DNA of 58,441 nt from Gemmatimonadales bacterium (lineage in GTDB: Bacteria; Gemmatimonadota; Gemmatimonadetes; Palauibacterales; Palauibacteraceae). Shown here one piece after another: positions 2,105 through 11,776 of this stretch. The stretch is taken from assembly GCA_009841005.1 (NCBI GenBank), contig VXMR01000096.1, positions 1 to 58,441 of the forward strand, written 5' to 3'. The notes under the pieces are model-generated. The model ran no database searches and was not told the origin of the DNA. It saw nothing but the letters and a program-made list of their open reading frames with translations. The position numbers and the translations under genes were made by a program. Every line of letters begins with the position of its first letter. Positions within the stretch are counted from its first letter, which is position 1.

Positions 2105-2458
2105 GTGACCTTCCGGTTGACGTGCCCGGTGTGCGGGAAGCGCGACGTCTACGAGTTCACGTACGGGGGGCCGGAGCGGGGCCCGAGGCCGCAGGAAGCG
2201 TATCCGGGGTCCGGAGCGGATCCCGAGGCCGGAGCGAATCCCGAGGCCGGAGCGGGCCTCGCGGCGGGGGCCGAGGCGCACTTTCGCTGGGCGCAGTTCC
2301 GCATGAACCGCCCGGAGCCGCAGGAGGAGTGGTGGCACCACGCGGCCGGCTGCGGCATTTGGTTCTCGATCTGGCGCGACCCGGCCACGAACCGGGAGGC
2401 GCGGCCCGGCGGCGGGGAGACGAGCGGGGACGAGGCAAGCGGGGGCGACTCTCGGTGA
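2105..2458 (+). CDS. soxD: Sarcosine oxidase, delta subunit
   Basis: Small zinc-binding subunit of heterotetrameric sarcosine oxidase. The N-terminal CPVCGKRD (residues 7-14) and the later HHAAGCGIWF provide the Cys/His ligands expected for the family, and the WWHHAAGCG segment is characteristic. At 117 residues it is slightly longer than usual because of a Gly/Ala/Pro/Glu-rich insert at about residues 30-58, partly encoded by a short tandem repeat. The GTG start has GGGAG 8 bp upstream. The stop overlaps the soxA start as GTGA, implying translational coupling. Confidence 0.9.
   Translation: MTFRLTCPVCGKRDVYEFTYGGPERGPRPQEAYPGSGADPEAGANPEAGAGLAAGAEAHFRWAQFRMNRPEPQEEWWHHAAGCGIWFSIWRDPATNREARPGGGETSGDEASGGDSR
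2220..2254 (+). repeat. Short tandem repeat inside soxD (18-bp unit, two copies)
   Basis: The unit atcccgaggccggagcg(a/g) occurs twice in tandem at 2220-2237 and 2238-2254, with a degenerate, related unit on each side. It encodes (D/N)PEAGA repeats in the SoxD linker. The 18-bp period keeps the frame, so copy-number change would lengthen or shorten a flexible loop without disrupting the gene. Confidence 0.7.
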
Positions 2459-5400
2459 GCCGGCTGCCTCCTTCCCCGACCGAGCGGATCGACCGCTCCA
2501 GGCCGCTCGGTTTTCGCTGGTGCGGGCGCACGCTGGAGGGTTTCGAGGGAGATACGGTCGCCTCGGCGCTCTGGGGGGCGGGGGTCCGCACCCTCGGCCG
2601 CAGCTTCGAATATCACCGGCCCCGGGGGCTGTACGACCTGGAGGGGGAAGGGTCGAGCCAGCTCGTCTCGATCGACGGCATCCCGAACCAGTCGGCGGGG
2701 ACGACGCCGCTGCGCGAGGGGATGGAGGTCGGCGCGCAGAACGTGCGGGGAGATCCGCGTTTCGACGTGTACGGCCTTCTCGACCGGCTCGACCGGTTCA
2801 TGCCGGCGGGCTTCTACTACCGGCTCTTCCACCGGCCCGCGTGGGCCGCCCGGTTCTTCCAGGAACGAATGCGGGGGCTGGCCGGCCTGGGCGTGCTGCG
2901 GCTCGACGTCCCGGACCGGGGGGAGCACGCCGAACGCTACCTCAAGGCCGACGTGGCGGTGGTCGGCGGCGGTCCGGCGGGGTTGTCGGCCGCGCTGGAG
3001 GCGGGCCGGCTCGGCCTTCGCGTGTGCCTGTTCGAACGCCGACCGTGGCTGGGGGGACATCTCGACTGGCGCGTGCGGGACGGTCGTTCGCTCGCCGGGG
3101 AGGTGTCCGCCCTCGCCGACGAACTCGAGCGCATGGAATTTGTGCGCGTGTTCCGGCATGCACCGGTCACGGGGATCTGGGGGGAGAACCTCCTCACGGG
3201 CTTCCAGTGTCGGAGTACCGGCCGCCGGGCCGGCAGCCGGACGGACAGCGCGACGGCGGCCGCCTTCGACGAGACGCACTGGGAGTGCCGTGCCCGAGCC
3301 GTGGTGGTCGCGACGGGTTCGATCGAACGGCCGCTGGTGTTCGAGCACAACGACCGGCCGGGCGTGACGCAGGTCGACACGGCGATCCGGCTCGCGCGGA
3401 CGTACGGGGTCCGGCCGGGCGCAGCCGCCGTCTTCAGCGTGGGCGACGACCTCGGGCTGGAGGCAGCGGTGGATCTGGCGTCGCTCGGAGTGGATGTGCG
3501 CCTGGTCGCGGATGCGCGGCACGAGGGTCACGACGAGGCTCTGGTGGATGCGCTGGTCGAGGCGGGGATCGACTTCCGGCCGGGGTGGGCCGCGAGTCGC
3601 GTGCGCGGGCGGAGCCGCGTCCGTCGTGTCGAACTGGCGGCCCGGACGACGACCGGCGCGGGGAGCGGCGCGTCGGTCGGATCCAGGGGTGGCGGGACGG
3701 GCGACTCGCTGCGCGTGGCGTGCGATCTGCTGGTGGCGAGCGCGGGACGCCAGCCGGACATCGGCGTCCTCTCGTGTGCCGGCGCGCGGTTCCGCCGCGG
3801 CGAGCGCACCCGGACCTTCGAGCTCGAGCGCCTGCCGCCCGACGTGTTCGCCGCGGGCGGCGTCCTTCGGCTCACCGATCTCGAGGCGCTCACATCTTCC
3901 GGGCGGATCGCGGGGCTCGAGGCCGCCACAGCGTGCGGCGCGAACGTGGCGAGTCCGCTGGCTCGGGAGCGCGCCCGGCTGGCAGACCGGCCGGGGCCCG
4001 CCCGGGGCTCCTCGATCGTCCGGGGACCCATCACCGAACGCCGCCTCGCCCCCGGCCGCAAGGCGTTCCTCGACTTCGACGAGGACGGTACCTGGAAGAA
4101 CGCGGCCCAGAGCGCCGCCTACGCCTTCGACGTGCCCGAACTCGCGAAGCGCTTCGGGAACTTCGGGCTCGGCCCCGGCCAGTACCGCGTGCCGGGCCAG
4201 AACCTCGCCATGGCGATGGCCGAGATCGCGGGGCGGCCGGTCGGCAGCTTCGCCGCCACGACGGTGCGCCCGCCGGTCATCCCCCCTTCCCTCGCGACGC
4301 TCGCGGGCCCGAACCACGACGTCCACAAACGGACCCCGCTCCACGACGACCAGGCCGCGCGGGGCGCCGTGTTCCGCCGGGCGGGGCCGTGGCTGCGGGC
4401 GCGCTACTTCAGCGAGGACCGGGAGTGTCTCGAGGAGATCCGCAACGTGCGCGAGAACGTCGGCCTCCTCGACAGTTCGCCGCTGGGGAAGTTCCGGATC
4501 TGGGGACCCGACGCCCTGCGCGCCCTCCAGCGCGTCTACGTCTCCGACATGACGCGGGCGCGGCCCGGCCGCTGCACGTACTCGGCGATGTGCAACGACA
4601 CCGGCAACGTCATCGACGACGGCGTCGTCGTGCGGACGGGCGACGACGAGTTCTACTTCACGACGAGTTCGAACCGGGCGGGGACCACCGTCGAGTGGCT
4701 TCGCTTCCACACGCGATACGACGGGTGGGACTACAACCTCGTGAACCTCACAGACGCGCTCGCCTCCATCAACGTGGCGGGGCCGAACGCCCGGCGCGTG
4801 CTGGAGAAGATCACGCGTGCGGAGCTGTCGGACGACGCGTTCCCGTATCTCGGCTGCCGCGAGATCGAGGTGGGAGACGGCGTCGCTGCGCGGTGTCTGC
4901 GCCTCGGGTTCGTGGGCGAGTTGTCCTATGAACTCCACGTGCGGGCGAGCCATGCCCGGTACGTGTGGGATCTGCTGTGGGAGGCCGGGGCGGAGTACGG
5001 CATCCGTCCGTTCGGGCTCGAAGCGCAGAACTGCCTGCGGGCCGAGAAGGGACACGTGATCATCGGGACGGAGTCCGAGCAGCGCGTCACCCTCCTCGAC
5101 ATCGGCATGGGCTGGCTCTGGGACCGCGGGGACACGGCCTCCGGCAAGGTGGGCGCCGCGGCGCTCCGCTACTGCGAGGGGCAGTCCGGGCGGCTGAAGC
5201 TCGTGGGACTCCGGGTCGACGACCCCGCGGGCGACGCGGGTGCCGGGGCCGCTCGCGACCCCGCTCACCGGCCCGAGGACGGAGCGCTCGTCGTGGACGG
5301 TGACCGGATCGCCGGCTTCGTCTGCACCACGCGGCACAGCGAGACGCTGGGCTGGCAGTACGGACTGGCCCTCGTCGAGGACCGGCTGGCGGAGCGGGGC

Positions 5401-6201
5401 CGATCGCTCGACCTGTACGAGTCGCTGGGCCGGCGGACCGTGCGCTCGACCGCAACCGTGGTGCCTCCCCACTTCCATGATCCGAGAGGGCAGCGCCTGC
5501 GGATCGCCGCCGAGGGGCGCCCACGCCGGCCCGGCGAGGCGCCATCGCAGCCGGCGCCCGCGGCCCATCGCCGGTCTCCGGTCCGCTTCGACGCCGCGCC
5601 CGCCCGCACCGAGCGCCGCGCCGGCTGGAACGTCGTGCTCGACTACGAATCGGACCCCGCCCCCGCCGACGTCATGCGCCAGGCCGGCCTCATCGACCTC
5701 AGCCACCGCGCCCGCTGGGATGTCCAGAACCGGGACATCCGGACCGTGCGGCCGTTCGGCCTCGACGTGCCCGGCACTCCCGGGGAAGTCGCGGTCCGCG
5801 ACGGGCTGTTGATCAACCGGATGAACGGAACCCAGGCCTCCGTCTGGCACGTCGGACCCGGGGCGGCGCCCGCCACGCCGGACGGTCCGCACTATACGGA
5901 CACGACCGACTCCCACTGCTGGCTCGCCCTCCTCGGAGACTCCGTTCCGGAGGTGCTGGAGTGCGTCACCAACCTCGACCTCTTCGACCCTGCGCGCGCG
6001 CGGCCGCTCCTGACGCAGGGGCCCGTCCTGCATGTACCTTGTCAGATCGTCACCTGGCGGGACGACGCCGTCCTCCTCATCTGCAGCCGGGGTTACGCGC
6101 AGACTTTCGTCGAAGCACTCCTCGAATCAGGCCGCCACGCGGGTCTGCACCCGGCCGGTGAGCGGCTCTTTACCGACTGGGTGCACGCGCTGGGGAACTG
6201 A
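2455..6201 (+). CDS. soxA: Sarcosine oxidase alpha subunit fused to gamma subunit (SoxA-SoxG)
   Basis: The 1248-residue product begins with the ferredoxin-like SoxA domain (GFEGDTVASALWGAGVR and GRSFEYHRPRG within the first ~70 residues). An FAD/NAD-binding domain follows with VVGGGPAGLSAALEAGRLG near residues 169-187. The folate-binding GcvT/aminomethyltransferase domain spans about 620-1000. The usual SoxA C-terminus, HFHDPRGQRLR, lies near residue 1005. Instead of stopping, the frame continues through a Pro/Arg/Ala-rich linker (about 1018-1050) into ~200 residues that resemble SoxG/YgfZ: AGLIDLSHRARWDVQ, then LLICSRGYAQTFVEALL. SoxG is normally a separate protein. The GTG start overlaps the soxD stop and restores the standard SoxA N-terminus; the open frame runs further upstream but only through soxD. 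It forms the complex that hands the methyl carbon to tetrahydrofolate. Confidence 0.9.
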   Translation: MSRLPPSPTERIDRSRPLGFRWCGRTLEGFEGDTVASALWGAGVRTLGRSFEYHRPRGLYDLEGEGSSQLVSIDGIPNQSAGTTPLREGMEVGAQNVRGDPRFDVYGLLDRLDRFMPAGFYYRLFHRPAWAARFFQERMRGLAGLGVLRLDVPDRGEHAERYLKADVAVVGGGPAGLSAALEAGRLGLRVCLFERRPWLGGHLDWRVRDGRSLAGEVSALADELERMEFVRVFRHAPVTGIWGENLLTGFQCRSTGRRAGSRTDSATAAAFDETHWECRARAVVVATGSIERPLVFEHNDRPGVTQVDTAIRLARTYGVRPGAAAVFSVGDDLGLEAAVDLASLGVDVRLVADARHEGHDEALVDALVEAGIDFRPGWAASRVRGRSRVRRVELAARTTTGAGSGASVGSRGGGTGDSLRVACDLLVASAGRQPDIGVLSCAGARFRRGERTRTFELERLPPDVFAAGGVLRLTDLEALTSSGRIAGLEAATACGANVASPLARERARLADRPGPARGSSIVRGPITERRLAPGRKAFLDFDEDGTWKNAAQSAAYAFDVPELAKRFGNFGLGPGQYRVPGQNLAMAMAEIAGRPVGSFAATTVRPPVIPPSLATLAGPNHDVHKRTPLHDDQAARGAVFRRAGPWLRARYFSEDRECLEEIRNVRENVGLLDSSPLGKFRIWGPDALRALQRVYVSDMTRARPGRCTYSAMCNDTGNVIDDGVVVRTGDDEFYFTTSSNRAGTTVEWLRFHTRYDGWDYNLVNLTDALASINVAGPNARRVLEKITRAELSDDAFPYLGCREIEVGDGVAARCLRLGFVGELSYELHVRASHARYVWDLLWEAGAEYGIRPFGLEAQNCLRAEKGHVIIGTESEQRVTLLDIGMGWLWDRGDTASGKVGAAALRYCEGQSGRLKLVGLRVDDPAGDAGAGAARDPAHRPEDGALVVDGDRIAGFVCTTRHSETLGWQYGLALVEDRLAERGRSLDLYESLGRRTVRSTATVVPPHFHDPRGQRLRIAAEGRPRRPGEAPSQPAPAAHRRSPVRFDAAPARTERRAGWNVVLDYESDPAPADVMRQAGLIDLSHRARWDVQNRDIRTVRPFGLDVPGTPGEVAVRDGLLINRMNGTQASVWHVGPGAAPATPDGPHYTDTTDSHCWLALLGDSVPEVLECVTNLDLFDPARARPLLTQGPVLHVPCQIVTWRDDAVLLICSRGYAQTFVEALLESGRHAGLHPAGERLFTDWVHALGN

Positions 6202-8703: not shown

Positions 8704-10314
8704 ATGCGCCGTGACTCCCGCACTCATCCGGCCCGCACATTGGCCTGCGTCCTGCTCGGCGTCCTGCTCGCCACGCTGGCCGCCGACGGCATCGAGGCCC
8801 AGCTGCACGCGCAGGACACCCGCGTCGAGATCGCCTCGGGGAACGTCGAGGGCATGCTGGAAAACGGTATCCGCTCCTACAGGGGGATTCCGTTCGCGGC
8901 GCCGCCCGTCGGGGACCGGCGCTGGAAGCCGCCCCAGCCGGTCGAAGCGTGGGGGCGGCGGACGCTGCGCGCGCACAGTTTCGGCCCGGAGTGCATGCAG
9001 GCCCCGTACGGCGCGGGTTCGTTCTTCGGAGGTCCCCCCGCCCCGACGGCGGAGGACTGCCTGTACCTGAACGTCTGGACCGGGGCCGCCGACGCCTCGG
9101 AGCGGCGGCCGGTCATGGTCTGGATCCACGGAGGCGCGCTCACGCGGGGGTCCGGCTCCACCGGCATCTACGACGGGACGGCGCTGGCGGCGAAGGGCGC
9201 CGTCGTCGTCACGATCAACTACCGGCTCGGACCGTTCGGCTACCTCGCGCATCCGCTTCTCTCGGCCGAATCGGAACACGGCTCGTCCGGCAACTACGGC
9301 GTCCTCGACCAGGTCGCGGCGCTCGAGTGGGTGCGCGACAACATCGCGGGCTTCGGCGGGGATCCGGAGCGCGTGACGATCTTCGGCGAGTCGGCCGGCT
9401 CGTGGAGCGTGAACACGCTGATGGCGACGCCGCTGGCGGCGGGACTCTTTCACCGCGCGATCGGTCAGAGCGGGGGGCGGTTCGGACCCATGGTGCGCCT
9501 TTCGGAAGCGCCGGAGGGCGGACGTTCCGCCGAGGAGATCGGAGCGGCGTTCCTCGGGGCGCTCGGGGCGGAGACGCTGGAGGAGATGCGGAGGCTCTCG
9601 GCCGCCAGCGTGATGGCGGGGCTCGACACGCCGGCCGGACGCGGCTTCAGGACGGCGGAGAACGTGGACGGCTGGGTGCTGCCGACGGACGTGACGACGG
9701 CCTTCGCCGGGGGCACGCACAACAACGTCCCGGTGCTCGTCGGGTTCAACGCGGATGAGATGACCTCTCTCTCGTCCCCGAGATCCGTGCCCGAGACGCT
9801 CGAGGCGTGGCGCGAGTGGGTGGCGGGCCGCGTCGGCGACGATGCGGAGAGCTTCGACGCCGCCTACCCGGTAGAGGAGGAAGGCGAGATCTTCGACGCC
9901 TTCATGCGAAGCCGCGGCGATGCCCTGTTCGGCATCCAGATGCGGACGTGGGCGCGGGCGTCGGAAGCCGCCGGCGGGGCTGCCTGGCTCTACTACTTTA
10001 CGCACGAGCCACCCGGACCCGCGAAGGACTATCTCAAGTCGTACCACGCGGCCGAGATCGTGTACGCCTTCGGCAACGTCGGTCCCGGCGAACGGGAAGC
10101 GTTGGACCGCCAGCTGGCGCAGACGATGTCCTCCTACTGGGTCAACTTCGCCGCGAACGGCGACCCGAACGGCCCCGGGCTGCCCTCGTGGCCAGCCTAC
10201 ACGCGCGACTCCGAGGCCCATCTCGTGCTCGGGCCGAAGGTCGAGGCGGGAAGCGCACTCCGCACGACCCAACTGGACTTCTGGGAACGGCGCCTCCGCG
10301 CCGGCACGCCGTGA
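8704..10314 (+). CDS. Secreted type-B carboxylesterase/lipase
   Basis: A 536-residue alpha/beta hydrolase of the carboxylesterase type B family. An N-terminal hydrophobic signal (LACVLLGVLLATLAADGIEA) implies export. Family motifs follow in order: RSYRGIPFAAPPVGDRRW at ~57-74, EDCLYLNVW at ~117-125, the oxyanion HGG at 142-144, and the nucleophile elbow GESAG with Ser230. The later NADEMTSL probably carries the acidic residue and SYHAAEIVYAF the catalytic His. CGGAG six bases upstream supports the ATG at 8704. Its stop overlaps the ATG of the peroxiredoxin-like selenoprotein by one base, so the two are coupled. Confidence 0.9.
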   Translation: MRRDSRTHPARTLACVLLGVLLATLAADGIEAQLHAQDTRVEIASGNVEGMLENGIRSYRGIPFAAPPVGDRRWKPPQPVEAWGRRTLRAHSFGPECMQAPYGAGSFFGGPPAPTAEDCLYLNVWTGAADASERRPVMVWIHGGALTRGSGSTGIYDGTALAAKGAVVVTINYRLGPFGYLAHPLLSAESEHGSSGNYGVLDQVAALEWVRDNIAGFGGDPERVTIFGESAGSWSVNTLMATPLAAGLFHRAIGQSGGRFGPMVRLSEAPEGGRSAEEIGAAFLGALGAETLEEMRRLSAASVMAGLDTPAGRGFRTAENVDGWVLPTDVTTAFAGGTHNNVPVLVGFNADEMTSLSSPRSVPETLEAWREWVAGRVGDDAESFDAAYPVEEEGEIFDAFMRSRGDALFGIQMRTWARASEAAGGAAWLYYFTHEPPGPAKDYLKSYHAAEIVYAFGNVGPGEREALDRQLAQTMSSYWVNFAANGDPNGPGLPSWPAYTRDSEAHLVLGPKVEAGSALRTTQLDFWERRLRAGTP

Positions 10315-10976
10315 TGTCGACCGGACCGCTCTGCCGGCGACTCGCCGAGATCCGCGCGGAGAAGGAGGCCGCGCGCCCCGCCGCCGCGACGGCGGTGATG
10401 GCCGCGGGAACGGAGGCGCTGCGGGCTTCCGGCATCCTCGACCGAATCCCCGGCGTGGGCGACCGGGCGCCGCTGTTTGCCCGCCCGAGCGTGGCCGGCC
10501 CCACGGTCCGGCTGAAGTCGCTCCTCAAGCGCGGCCCCGTGGTGCTCAGCTTCTTCCGCGGCCGCTGGTGACCGTACTGCCGCGAAGAGCAGGTCGCTCT
10601 TCAGTCGGTTCTTCCGGAGATCGAAGCGAAGGGCGCGCGACTCGTCACGCTCTCTCCGCAGCTCGCCGAGTTTGCCCGCGGCTGGGTCGAGGAGGACGGC
10701 ATCGAGTTCGACGTCCTGCTGGACCTCGGGCTGGGGGTCGCTCGTGACTACGGCCTGACGTTCCGGGTCGAGGGCGAACTGCGCGCGCTCTACCGCGACG
10801 GCCTCGGCATCGATCTCGCCCGCTTCAACGGCGACGAGTCCTGGGAACTCCCGCTCACGTCAACCTTCGTCATCGACCGCTCGGGGACTATCGTGTACGC
10901 CTCCGCCGACCCCGACTACACCGTGCGAGGCGAGCCGGCCGACGTCGCCGCCGCCATCCCGCCCTCCAACTCATAG
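10314..10976 (+). CDS. Peroxiredoxin-like AhpC/TSA-fold selenoprotein (in-frame TGA = Sec86)
   Basis: Read through the TGA at 10,569-10,571, this is a continuous 220-residue thioredoxin-fold protein of the AhpC/TSA peroxiredoxin-like group. Before the TGA it has GDRAPLF and VVLSFFRGRW. After it come PYCREEQVALQSVLPEIEAKGARLVTLSPQ (in two pieces), FDVLLDLGLGVARDYGL and STFVIDRSGTIVYA. The family motif is FxRGxWCPYC, so TGA occupies the peroxidatic cysteine and gives U86-P-Y-C89. A hairpin at 10,584-10,602 has the features of a bacterial SECIS. Codon use and homology continue unchanged downstream, which argues against a dead gene, though a Cys-to-stop mutation cannot be excluded by sequence alone. 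Its ATG overlaps the esterase stop. The likely role is thiol-dependent peroxide reduction. Conventional gene callers will end it at residue 85. Confidence 0.85.
10584..10602 (+). promoter_or_regulatory. Bacterial SECIS-like stem-loop
   Basis: A perfect 7-bp stem (gaagagc/gctcttc) closes a five-base loop, AGGTC, starting 19 bases after the in-frame TGA. From general knowledge, bacterial SECIS elements lie within roughly 16-37 bases of the UGA and need a G near the start of a small apical loop. The loop context GCAGGTC also resembles that of the E. coli fdhF element. The structure lies inside the coding region and encodes REEQVAL. It is the binding site expected for the selenocysteine elongation factor SelB. 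Confidence 0.8.
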
Positions 10977-11044: not shown

Positions 11045-11098
11045 GATCAACCCGCAAGTTACGTTTTGCACAAACTCCAGACTGACGGTGGTAGAGAC

Positions 11099-11344
11099 GT
11101 GGCGAGTATCACGATTCGGAATCTGGGTGACGGGGTGAAACGCCGGCTTCGGATTAGAGCGGCGGAGCATAATCGTTCCATGGAAGAGGAAGCGCGGGTG
11201 ATTCTCCGCGAGACAGTCGGCCAGGAAAAGATGCCCGCGAAGGGCCTGGGGACTGCGATCCATGAACTGTTCGCGCCCCTGGGTGGCGTGGAGCTCGAGA
11301 TTCCCCCGCGCGAGCCGATGCGCGAACCGCCACGGTTCGACTGA
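11099..11344 (+). CDS. FitA-type ribbon-helix-helix antitoxin
   Basis: An 81-residue antitoxin. The N-terminus ASITIRNLGDGVKRRLRIRAA followed by HNRSMEEEARVILRE is the FitA/Arc-MetJ-like DNA-binding pattern. The C-terminal half (GLGTAIHELFAPLGGVELE) should wrap the toxin active site. The GTG at 11,099 is preferred because the domain starts there; the open frame extends 33 bases further but those residues do not match the family. The toxin gene follows 9 bp later. It probably binds its toxin and represses the operon through the inverted repeat at 11,029-11,044. Confidence 0.85.
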   Translation: MASITIRNLGDGVKRRLRIRAAEHNRSMEEEARVILRETVGQEKMPAKGLGTAIHELFAPLGGVELEIPPREPMREPPRFD

Positions 11345-11353
11345 GTCGCACCG

Positions 11354-11776
11354 ATGTTCATCCTCGACACGAATGTCGTCTCAGAGTTGATGCGCGGGGT
11401 CCCGCAGCCTGAAGTGCTCGCATGGGTCGACGCCCGCGCGAGGCGGGATCTCTTCGTCACTGCGATCACAGAGGCGGAGATCCGAACCGGCATCGCCATC
11501 CTGCCAGCCGGCAGGCGCCGACGGGATCTGGCGCATGCAGCAGATCGGTTCTTTGCGGACTTCTTCACGAACCGCGTGCTGCCGTTCGACGGTTCCGCAG
11601 CGAGGGCCTACGCGGAGATCACGGCCGAGCGACGGGCCGCTGGACGCCCGATCAGCCAATTCGACTGTCAGATCGCGGCCGTCACTCGTTGCCGAGGCGC
11701 TGCGCTGGCGACGCGAAACGTGAGGGATTTCAAGAGCGCCGGGATCGAAGTGCTGGATCCCTGGGCTGACGTCTGA
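11354..11776 (+). CDS. FitB/VapC-type PIN-domain toxin ribonuclease
   Basis: A 140-residue PIN-domain protein, full length for FitB/VapC. Acidic metal ligands are visible: Asp5 in MFILDTNVVSELM, Glu in TAITEAEIRTG (about residue 42), Asp in SQFDCQIAA (about 104), and the late ATRNVRDFK segment. Such toxins are Mg-dependent RNases that cut tRNA or other RNA when unbound. The active-site residues appear intact, so the toxin is probably functional. It is paired with the antitoxin 9 bp upstream, and the next gene begins 7 bp after its stop. Confidence 0.88.
   Translation: MFILDTNVVSELMRGVPQPEVLAWVDARARRDLFVTAITEAEIRTGIAILPAGRRRRDLAHAADRFFADFFTNRVLPFDGSAARAYAEITAERRAAGRPISQFDCQIAAVTRCRGAALATRNVRDFKSAGIEVLDPWADV

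Follow-up and report, generated by a model that had tools for sequence, protein, structure and literature searches.

Prx-like selenoproteins have been described in several papers (PMC1088965, PMC2398784, PMC1794560, PMC9312934, PMC13188914); where the accessible text of these papers tabulates them, they combine a UxxC motif, in which U is selenocysteine (Sec), with an AhpC-TSA domain (PF00578). Selenoproteins with these two features are an established kind, in print at least since 2005. The model of the bacterial SECIS hairpin (bSECIS) in the accessible text of PMC13188914 has a loop of 3–9 nt with a G in the first two positions, a stem of 4–16 bp, a distance of 16–37 nt from UGA to loop and a minimum free energy (MFE) of −7.5 kcal/mol or lower. 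None of the papers that our literature search returned deals with selenoproteins of Gemmatimonadota, as judged from the accessible text. PMC3281104 and PMC4807772 name the phylum once or twice; 'Gemmatimon' is absent from the main text of PMC5029168, PMC12013277 and PMC9312934, as 'Gemmatimonad' is from PMC13188914, and in the paper on Palauibacterales (PMC10469786) 'selen' occurs only within an author's name.

We have analysed a 58,441-nt stretch of DNA, here called the window, from a Gemmatimonadales bacterium (assembly GCA_009841005.1, contig VXMR01000096.1), in which an earlier note, made by inspection of the letters, had proposed a Sec-containing peroxiredoxin-like protein hidden by an in-frame TGA. 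Comparison with related genomes makes it very nearly certain, in our judgement, that 10314–10976 encodes a peroxiredoxin-fold selenoprotein, the UGA at 10569–10571 being read as Sec by means of a downstream hairpin. What carries this conclusion is the conservation of the TGA, together with coding constraint, silent sites and the presence of the Sec machinery.

Results

The coding sequence lies on the plus strand (10314–10976) and specifies 220 residues of the AhpC/TSA (PF00578) family up to a TAG stop at 10974–10976, its start codon being uncertain by a few residues. When TGA is read as a residue the frame is open throughout; its sole in-frame TGA is codon 86 (10569–10571, Sec86), in the context FFRGRW-U-PYC, where it stands first in a CxxC-type motif. 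The putative partner thiol of the UxxC motif, Cys89 (10578–10580, plus strand), is invariant in an alignment of 23 sequences, 11 with Sec and 12 with Cys. The earlier note saw peroxiredoxin-like homology running unbroken across the TGA, and profile searches bear this out: the PF00578 match (84.8 bits against a cut-off of 26) extends from residue 48 to residue 195, and a match to Redoxin (PF08534) also runs across the TGA. The protein thus has the PF00578 domain together with UxxC, here UPYC, that marks a Prx-like thiol:disulfide oxidoreductase, and the TxxU motif of the Sec peroxiredoxin (Prx) is absent from its 220 residues. None of the nine NCBIfam families listed for it exceeded its cut-off, the best being ResA (32.6 bits against 170); the SelL-related redox protein family NF040769 gave 30.3 bits against a curated cut-off of 120 with Sec read as Cys.

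The 45 codon-resolved Sec loci of the close group (57–100% identity, the window's included) comprise 31 distinct sequences, every one of which has TGA as codon 86; at the same site all 14 of the more distant loci (40–49% identity) have TGC. The in-frame TGA therefore aligns with the Cys of homologs, as expected of a selenoprotein. The continuous PF00578 match and the TGC at the site in the Cys homologs are also the outcome of a check that the earlier note had proposed, alignment of the read-through protein with AhpC/TSA-like families. Of 394 genomes of the class, 47 contained a match at E≤1e-40; an in-frame TGA lay within the match in every one of the 47, and none of these matches was of the Cys form, codon identity in this survey being resolved only for the retrieved loci. 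Some rows of the survey show a second TGA or TAG, which in the retrieved loci falls beyond about residue 215, at the gene end. Within the genus, the match in G091 covers residues 3–83 only and has no stop, and G094 gave no match to the protein in the class survey; a match in G327 (31% identity) also lacks a stop. The nearest matches are assemblies of Candidatus Palauibacter and other Gemmatimonadetes, and a wider sample of the phylum added nothing, its matching genomes all being among those of the class survey. Outside Gemmatimonadota only Cys forms were found, by a contig scan whose patterns reach close relatives only and whose site-containing pattern was built for Cys.

Sequence 3′ of the TGA is under purifying selection like that 5′ of it. 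In comparisons with other distinct Sec sequences (23 made of 30 possible, of which 22 were defined), dN/dS was 0.057–0.327 after the TGA and 0.081–0.521 before it. A dead tail would behave otherwise, and the low values after the TGA therefore indicate that the tail is not dead. This bears on the possibility that the TGA is a nonsense mutation or a sequencing error, leaving a pseudogene or a truncated protein of 85 residues. Translation table 11 does stop at codon 86, and one distant Cys-type locus looks decayed and carries a TGA at another codon. The close group, however, has the identical TGA in every distinct sequence, from separate assemblies, followed by a region in which coding constraint persists and silent sites are frozen. 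Taken together, the 31 of 31 TGA codons, the frozen silent sites and, beyond the TGA, dN/dS values far under 1 exceed chance by a wide margin, and we give mutation or error next to no credence. Stops at varying positions among close homologs, which the earlier note had named as grounds for abandoning its reading, do not occur in the close group; the one TGA found elsewhere belongs to the distant Cys-type locus just mentioned (L085, 3900–4450, Pseudovibrio ascidiaceicola, 42% identity), where it lines up with residue 83. Because an intact Cys copy (L076) is present elsewhere in that species, this locus seems to be a duplicate that has decayed.

The predicted SECIS hairpin occupies 10584–10602 on the plus strand. 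GAAGAGC (10584–10590) pairs perfectly with GCTCTTC (10596–10602) in a 7-bp stem, which is also present in the 60-nt fold, and closes the apical loop AGGTC (10591–10595). The earlier note was right about stem and loop and imprecise about their placement '19 bases later': the stem begins 12 nt after the TGA, and it is the loop that begins after 19. With a 5-nt loop, a G in its second position, a 7-bp stem, 19 nt from UGA to loop and −9.1 kcal/mol for the 19-nt hairpin, the element fits the constraints published in the accessible text of PMC13188914, as the note had expected of a bacterial SECIS. Isolated, the 19-nt hairpin folds better than 200 of 200 shuffles. In a 60-nt context its z score is −1.52 and 18 of 200 shuffles fold equally well, while synonymous recoding gives a stem as long in 816 of 20000 cases and a fold as stable in 112 of 2000. 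Taken alone and in context, the window's hairpin is only mildly unusual, and single-sequence folding there is weak evidence.

Comparison between loci is more telling. Codons 92, 93 and 95 are GAG, CAG and GCT in all 31 distinct sequences, yet GCT, invariably used for Ala95, accounts for 2.5% of the Ala codons of the adjacent esterase gene and for 8.9% of those in the homologous genes. Excess codon identity is greatest at codons 90–95 among 148 stretches of six codons, the best of which start, in order, at codons 90, 91, 92, 94, 93 and 89. All 28 distinct stretches are able to form the four core stem pairs, GAGCAGGYYGCTC, the SECIS apex, is present in 26 of the 28, and pairing over the stem holds in 182 of 224 cells in register as against 71–146 when the arms are slid by 1–3. 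The outer three pairs are less regular (kept in 17, 13 and 15 of the 28). When the 51 nt that follow the TGA are folded, the MFE structure contains the core stem in 20 of the 28 stretches and lacks it in eight; this structure misses the −7.5 kcal/mol limit in two (−6.4 for L048, −7.3 for L051), and the isolated 21-nt hairpin attains it in 13. By these last two measures, the hairpin of distant members is much weaker than that of the window. The apex is thus conserved, but the strong 7-bp stem characterizes the near relatives of the window. Covariation is nearly absent, with a single two-sided change, which falls on an outer pair, and is unusable as evidence for the stem because the core is invariant. 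A search of Rfam gave the hairpin no family match, its one hit, to a miRNA family, scoring 13.6 bits where the cut-off is 100.

Of the four genes of Sec decoding that the earlier note had listed (selA, selB, selC for tRNA-Sec, and selD), three were detected in the genome by profile search, all above curated cut-offs (selA 496, selB 371, selD 375 bits); these profiles exceeded their cut-offs in just one (selA), two (selB) and two (selD) of 14 control genomes. For tRNA-Sec, a search of the assembly gave no hit over the cut-off and nine below it, eight of which proved to be tRNAs for Ser, Leu, Tyr or Val. The tRNA-Sec region of a relative nevertheless matches contig C76 from 12397 to the contig end at 13445, and the last 48 nt of C76 are the first 48 of the 92 nt of the relative's tRNA-Sec, anticodon included. 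A second assembly of the same species (G017) holds the entire gene, called by ARAGORN as tRNA-SeC (tca). The species therefore has tRNA-Sec, and the gene is incomplete in the window's own assembly, where the end of C76 cuts it. Contig C76 also carries selB, and a tmRNA gene (L016, 9098–9463) lies between selB and the cut tRNA-Sec. Across 40 sampled genomes (the window's own included) tRNA-Sec was over the cut-off in 34, which include every one of the 15 other genomes of the genus in the sample. In the class sample, selA was found at E≤1e-60 in 284 of 394 genomes: 44 of the 47 with the TGA gene as against 240 of the 347 without it (Fisher p=1.1e-4, relatedness ignored). The three in which it was not found (G100, G131 and G348) are assemblies 90, 81 and 63% complete, respectively, and G100 does have tRNA-Sec.

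Two other genes of this genome have an in-frame TGA in a Cys-type motif. In selD it falls in SHGAG-U-ACK (L022 position 1531, contig C41), at what we take to be the place of the active-site Cys or Sec of SelD, and is followed by a hairpin with a GGA loop; SelD is on these grounds probably a selenoprotein itself. A second Prx-like selenoprotein candidate lies on contig C69 at 9340–9894 (L026, 1477–2178, minus strand). It resembles the window protein in its motif, FYRGHWUPYC, in a TGA at the matching place and in a hairpin, again with a GGA loop, and differs from it in being only about 30% identical. Its N-terminus resembles, by eye, a lipoprotein signal, and the protein is for this reason probably exported. 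Weak matches with one TGA in many genomes of the class may represent this second gene.

That UGA is read through does not tell which residue is inserted, and the codon might be reassigned to Trp, or suppressed, with some residue other than Sec inserted. Against this, further homologs carry Cys at the site, not Trp; the neighbouring esterase gene terminates on TGA; the genome contains Sec machinery and the two further TGA-containing genes just described; and the same species has the tRNA-SeC called by ARAGORN, with anticodon TCA. We regard such decoding as very improbable.

Directly upstream is a carboxylesterase gene (PF00135; 8611–10314, plus strand), and the TGATG overlap remarked on in the earlier note is real, the esterase stop (TGA, 10312–10314) sharing one base with the selenoprotein ATG (10314–10316). 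The arrangement is not general. This esterase gene lies upstream in 21 of the 45 Sec loci, exactly those with protein identity of at least 89%, and the junction at these 21 loci varies from an overlap of a few bases to about 40 nt; it was not found in the available DNA of the other 24, two of which, L046 and L066, start within the selenoprotein gene and are therefore uninformative here. The two genes possibly share a transcript, in this lineage only. As a general clue to function an operon link to the esterase was rejected, its presence being confined to that minority of loci. Elsewhere in the window, a FitA-like ribbon-helix-helix antitoxin and a PIN-domain toxin (PF22513, PF01850) are encoded just downstream, at 11066–11776, and a large sarcosine-oxidase-alpha-like protein, with domains of the GCV_T, Fer2_4 and pyridine-nucleotide oxidoreductase types, at 2122–6201.

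An AlphaFold2 model built from 23 sequences, with Sec read as Cys, has a pLDDT of 94.8 and a pTM of 0.92. Comparison by Foldseek (pdb) and VIA-align 2 placed it among Bcp/PrxQ and AhpE peroxiredoxins, as exemplified by 3hjp (Bcp4; Z 20.2 over 156 residues, rmsd 2.0) and 5id2 (AhpE; Z 20.1 over 152 residues). The fold is accordingly predicted to be that of a peroxiredoxin. The term 'peroxiredoxin-like' used in the earlier note is apt for the modelled fold, while peroxidase activity is putative only.

Discussion

Which residue of the UPYC motif would attack is the point on which readings of the enzyme divide. The earlier note put the TGA at the catalytic Cys. This holds in so far as residue 86 corresponds to the first Cys of a thioredoxin-type CxxC; the classical peroxidatic Cys, by alignment, corresponds to Cys89. 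The same Sec-containing gene could accordingly encode a true peroxiredoxin, in which Cys89 would be peroxidatic, as in PxxxT/SxxC, and Sec86 would resolve or tune it. The closest folds are indeed peroxiredoxins (3hjp, 5id2), and profile alignments with the Bcp-type proteins 2cx3 and 5epf set their Cys against Cys89 and a Ser or Thr against residue 86. On the other side, alignment with ResA (4nmu) sets residue 86 against the first Cys of CxxC. In ResA this Cys is the nucleophile, and Sec usually occupies the attacking position. Moreover, the accessible text of PMC1088965 gives Prx-like UxxC proteins a thioredoxin-like motif instead of TxxU. We hold catalysis by Cys89 to be possible and rather unlikely.

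Because Sec lies at a thioredoxin-type nucleophile position within a peroxiredoxin fold, the most likely role of the protein, as far as its sequence indicates, is that of a thiol-disulfide oxidoreductase or a reductase of small (hydro)peroxides, with Sec86 attacking. In the sequence of events that we propose, a ribosome reaching the UGA at 10569–10571 would receive Sec-tRNA(Sec) from SelB bound to the hairpin at 10584–10602, Sec86 would be inserted, and translation would continue to the TAG at 10974–10976. In the finished protein the selenolate of Sec86, at the start of a helix, would attack a disulfide or a peroxide; Cys89 would resolve Sec86 as an Se–S bond, which a thioredoxin-type donor would reduce.

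In an unrooted tree of 44 sequences, a branch with support of 100/99 divides 31 Sec from 13 Cys forms. The tree was drawn from 59 loci, and families f4 and f5 are absent from it because identical rows and rows shorter than 150 aa were left out. One Cys/Sec change would be enough to account for this split, and we infer that it went from Cys to Sec. It seems probable that these genes form a Sec-only peroxiredoxin-like branch, spread over several families of a single class of Gemmatimonadota (47 of 394 genomes), consistent with a single Cys/Sec change and marked by a frozen SECIS apex; their product would be a redox enzyme that depends on selenium, belongs to uncultured and often marine bacteria, and is cut short by ordinary annotation. 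Annotation of these assemblies probably mistakes such genes for truncated ones, and the frozen hairpin apex offers a handle for finding more of them. With this locus, Palauibacter-type Gemmatimonadota can be credited with a well-supported selenoprotein and with Sec decoding as a trait.

The Cys forms (L072–L085, from Ruegeria, Pseudovibrio, Ktedonobacter, a Desulfobacterota genome and others) are of similar length in 13 of 14 cases, are 40–49% identical to the window protein and have in common with the Sec forms the blocks around WCPYC and near the C-terminus; they differ in having TGC for TGA, and the 13 that were used lie across the well-supported (100/99) branch of the tree. The Bcp/PrxQ and AhpE peroxiredoxins 3hjp and 5id2 have the same predicted fold, whereas they are only 19–24% identical and leave about the first 40 residues uncovered, and the related 2cx3 and 5epf carry Ser or Thr at the place of Sec. 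Closest in kind are the Prx-like thiol:disulfide oxidoreductases (UxxC/UxxU) and, from the GOS survey, the Prx-like 1 family, which, as the accessible text of PMC1088965, PMC2398784, PMC9312934 and PMC13188914 describes them, share with the window protein the AhpC-TSA domain, a Sec that opens the CxxC motif and a bacterial SECIS a short way downstream. From these families, compared by their published descriptions, the clade of the window is set apart by its own motif, FFRGRWUPYC, and by its Gemmatimonadota host.
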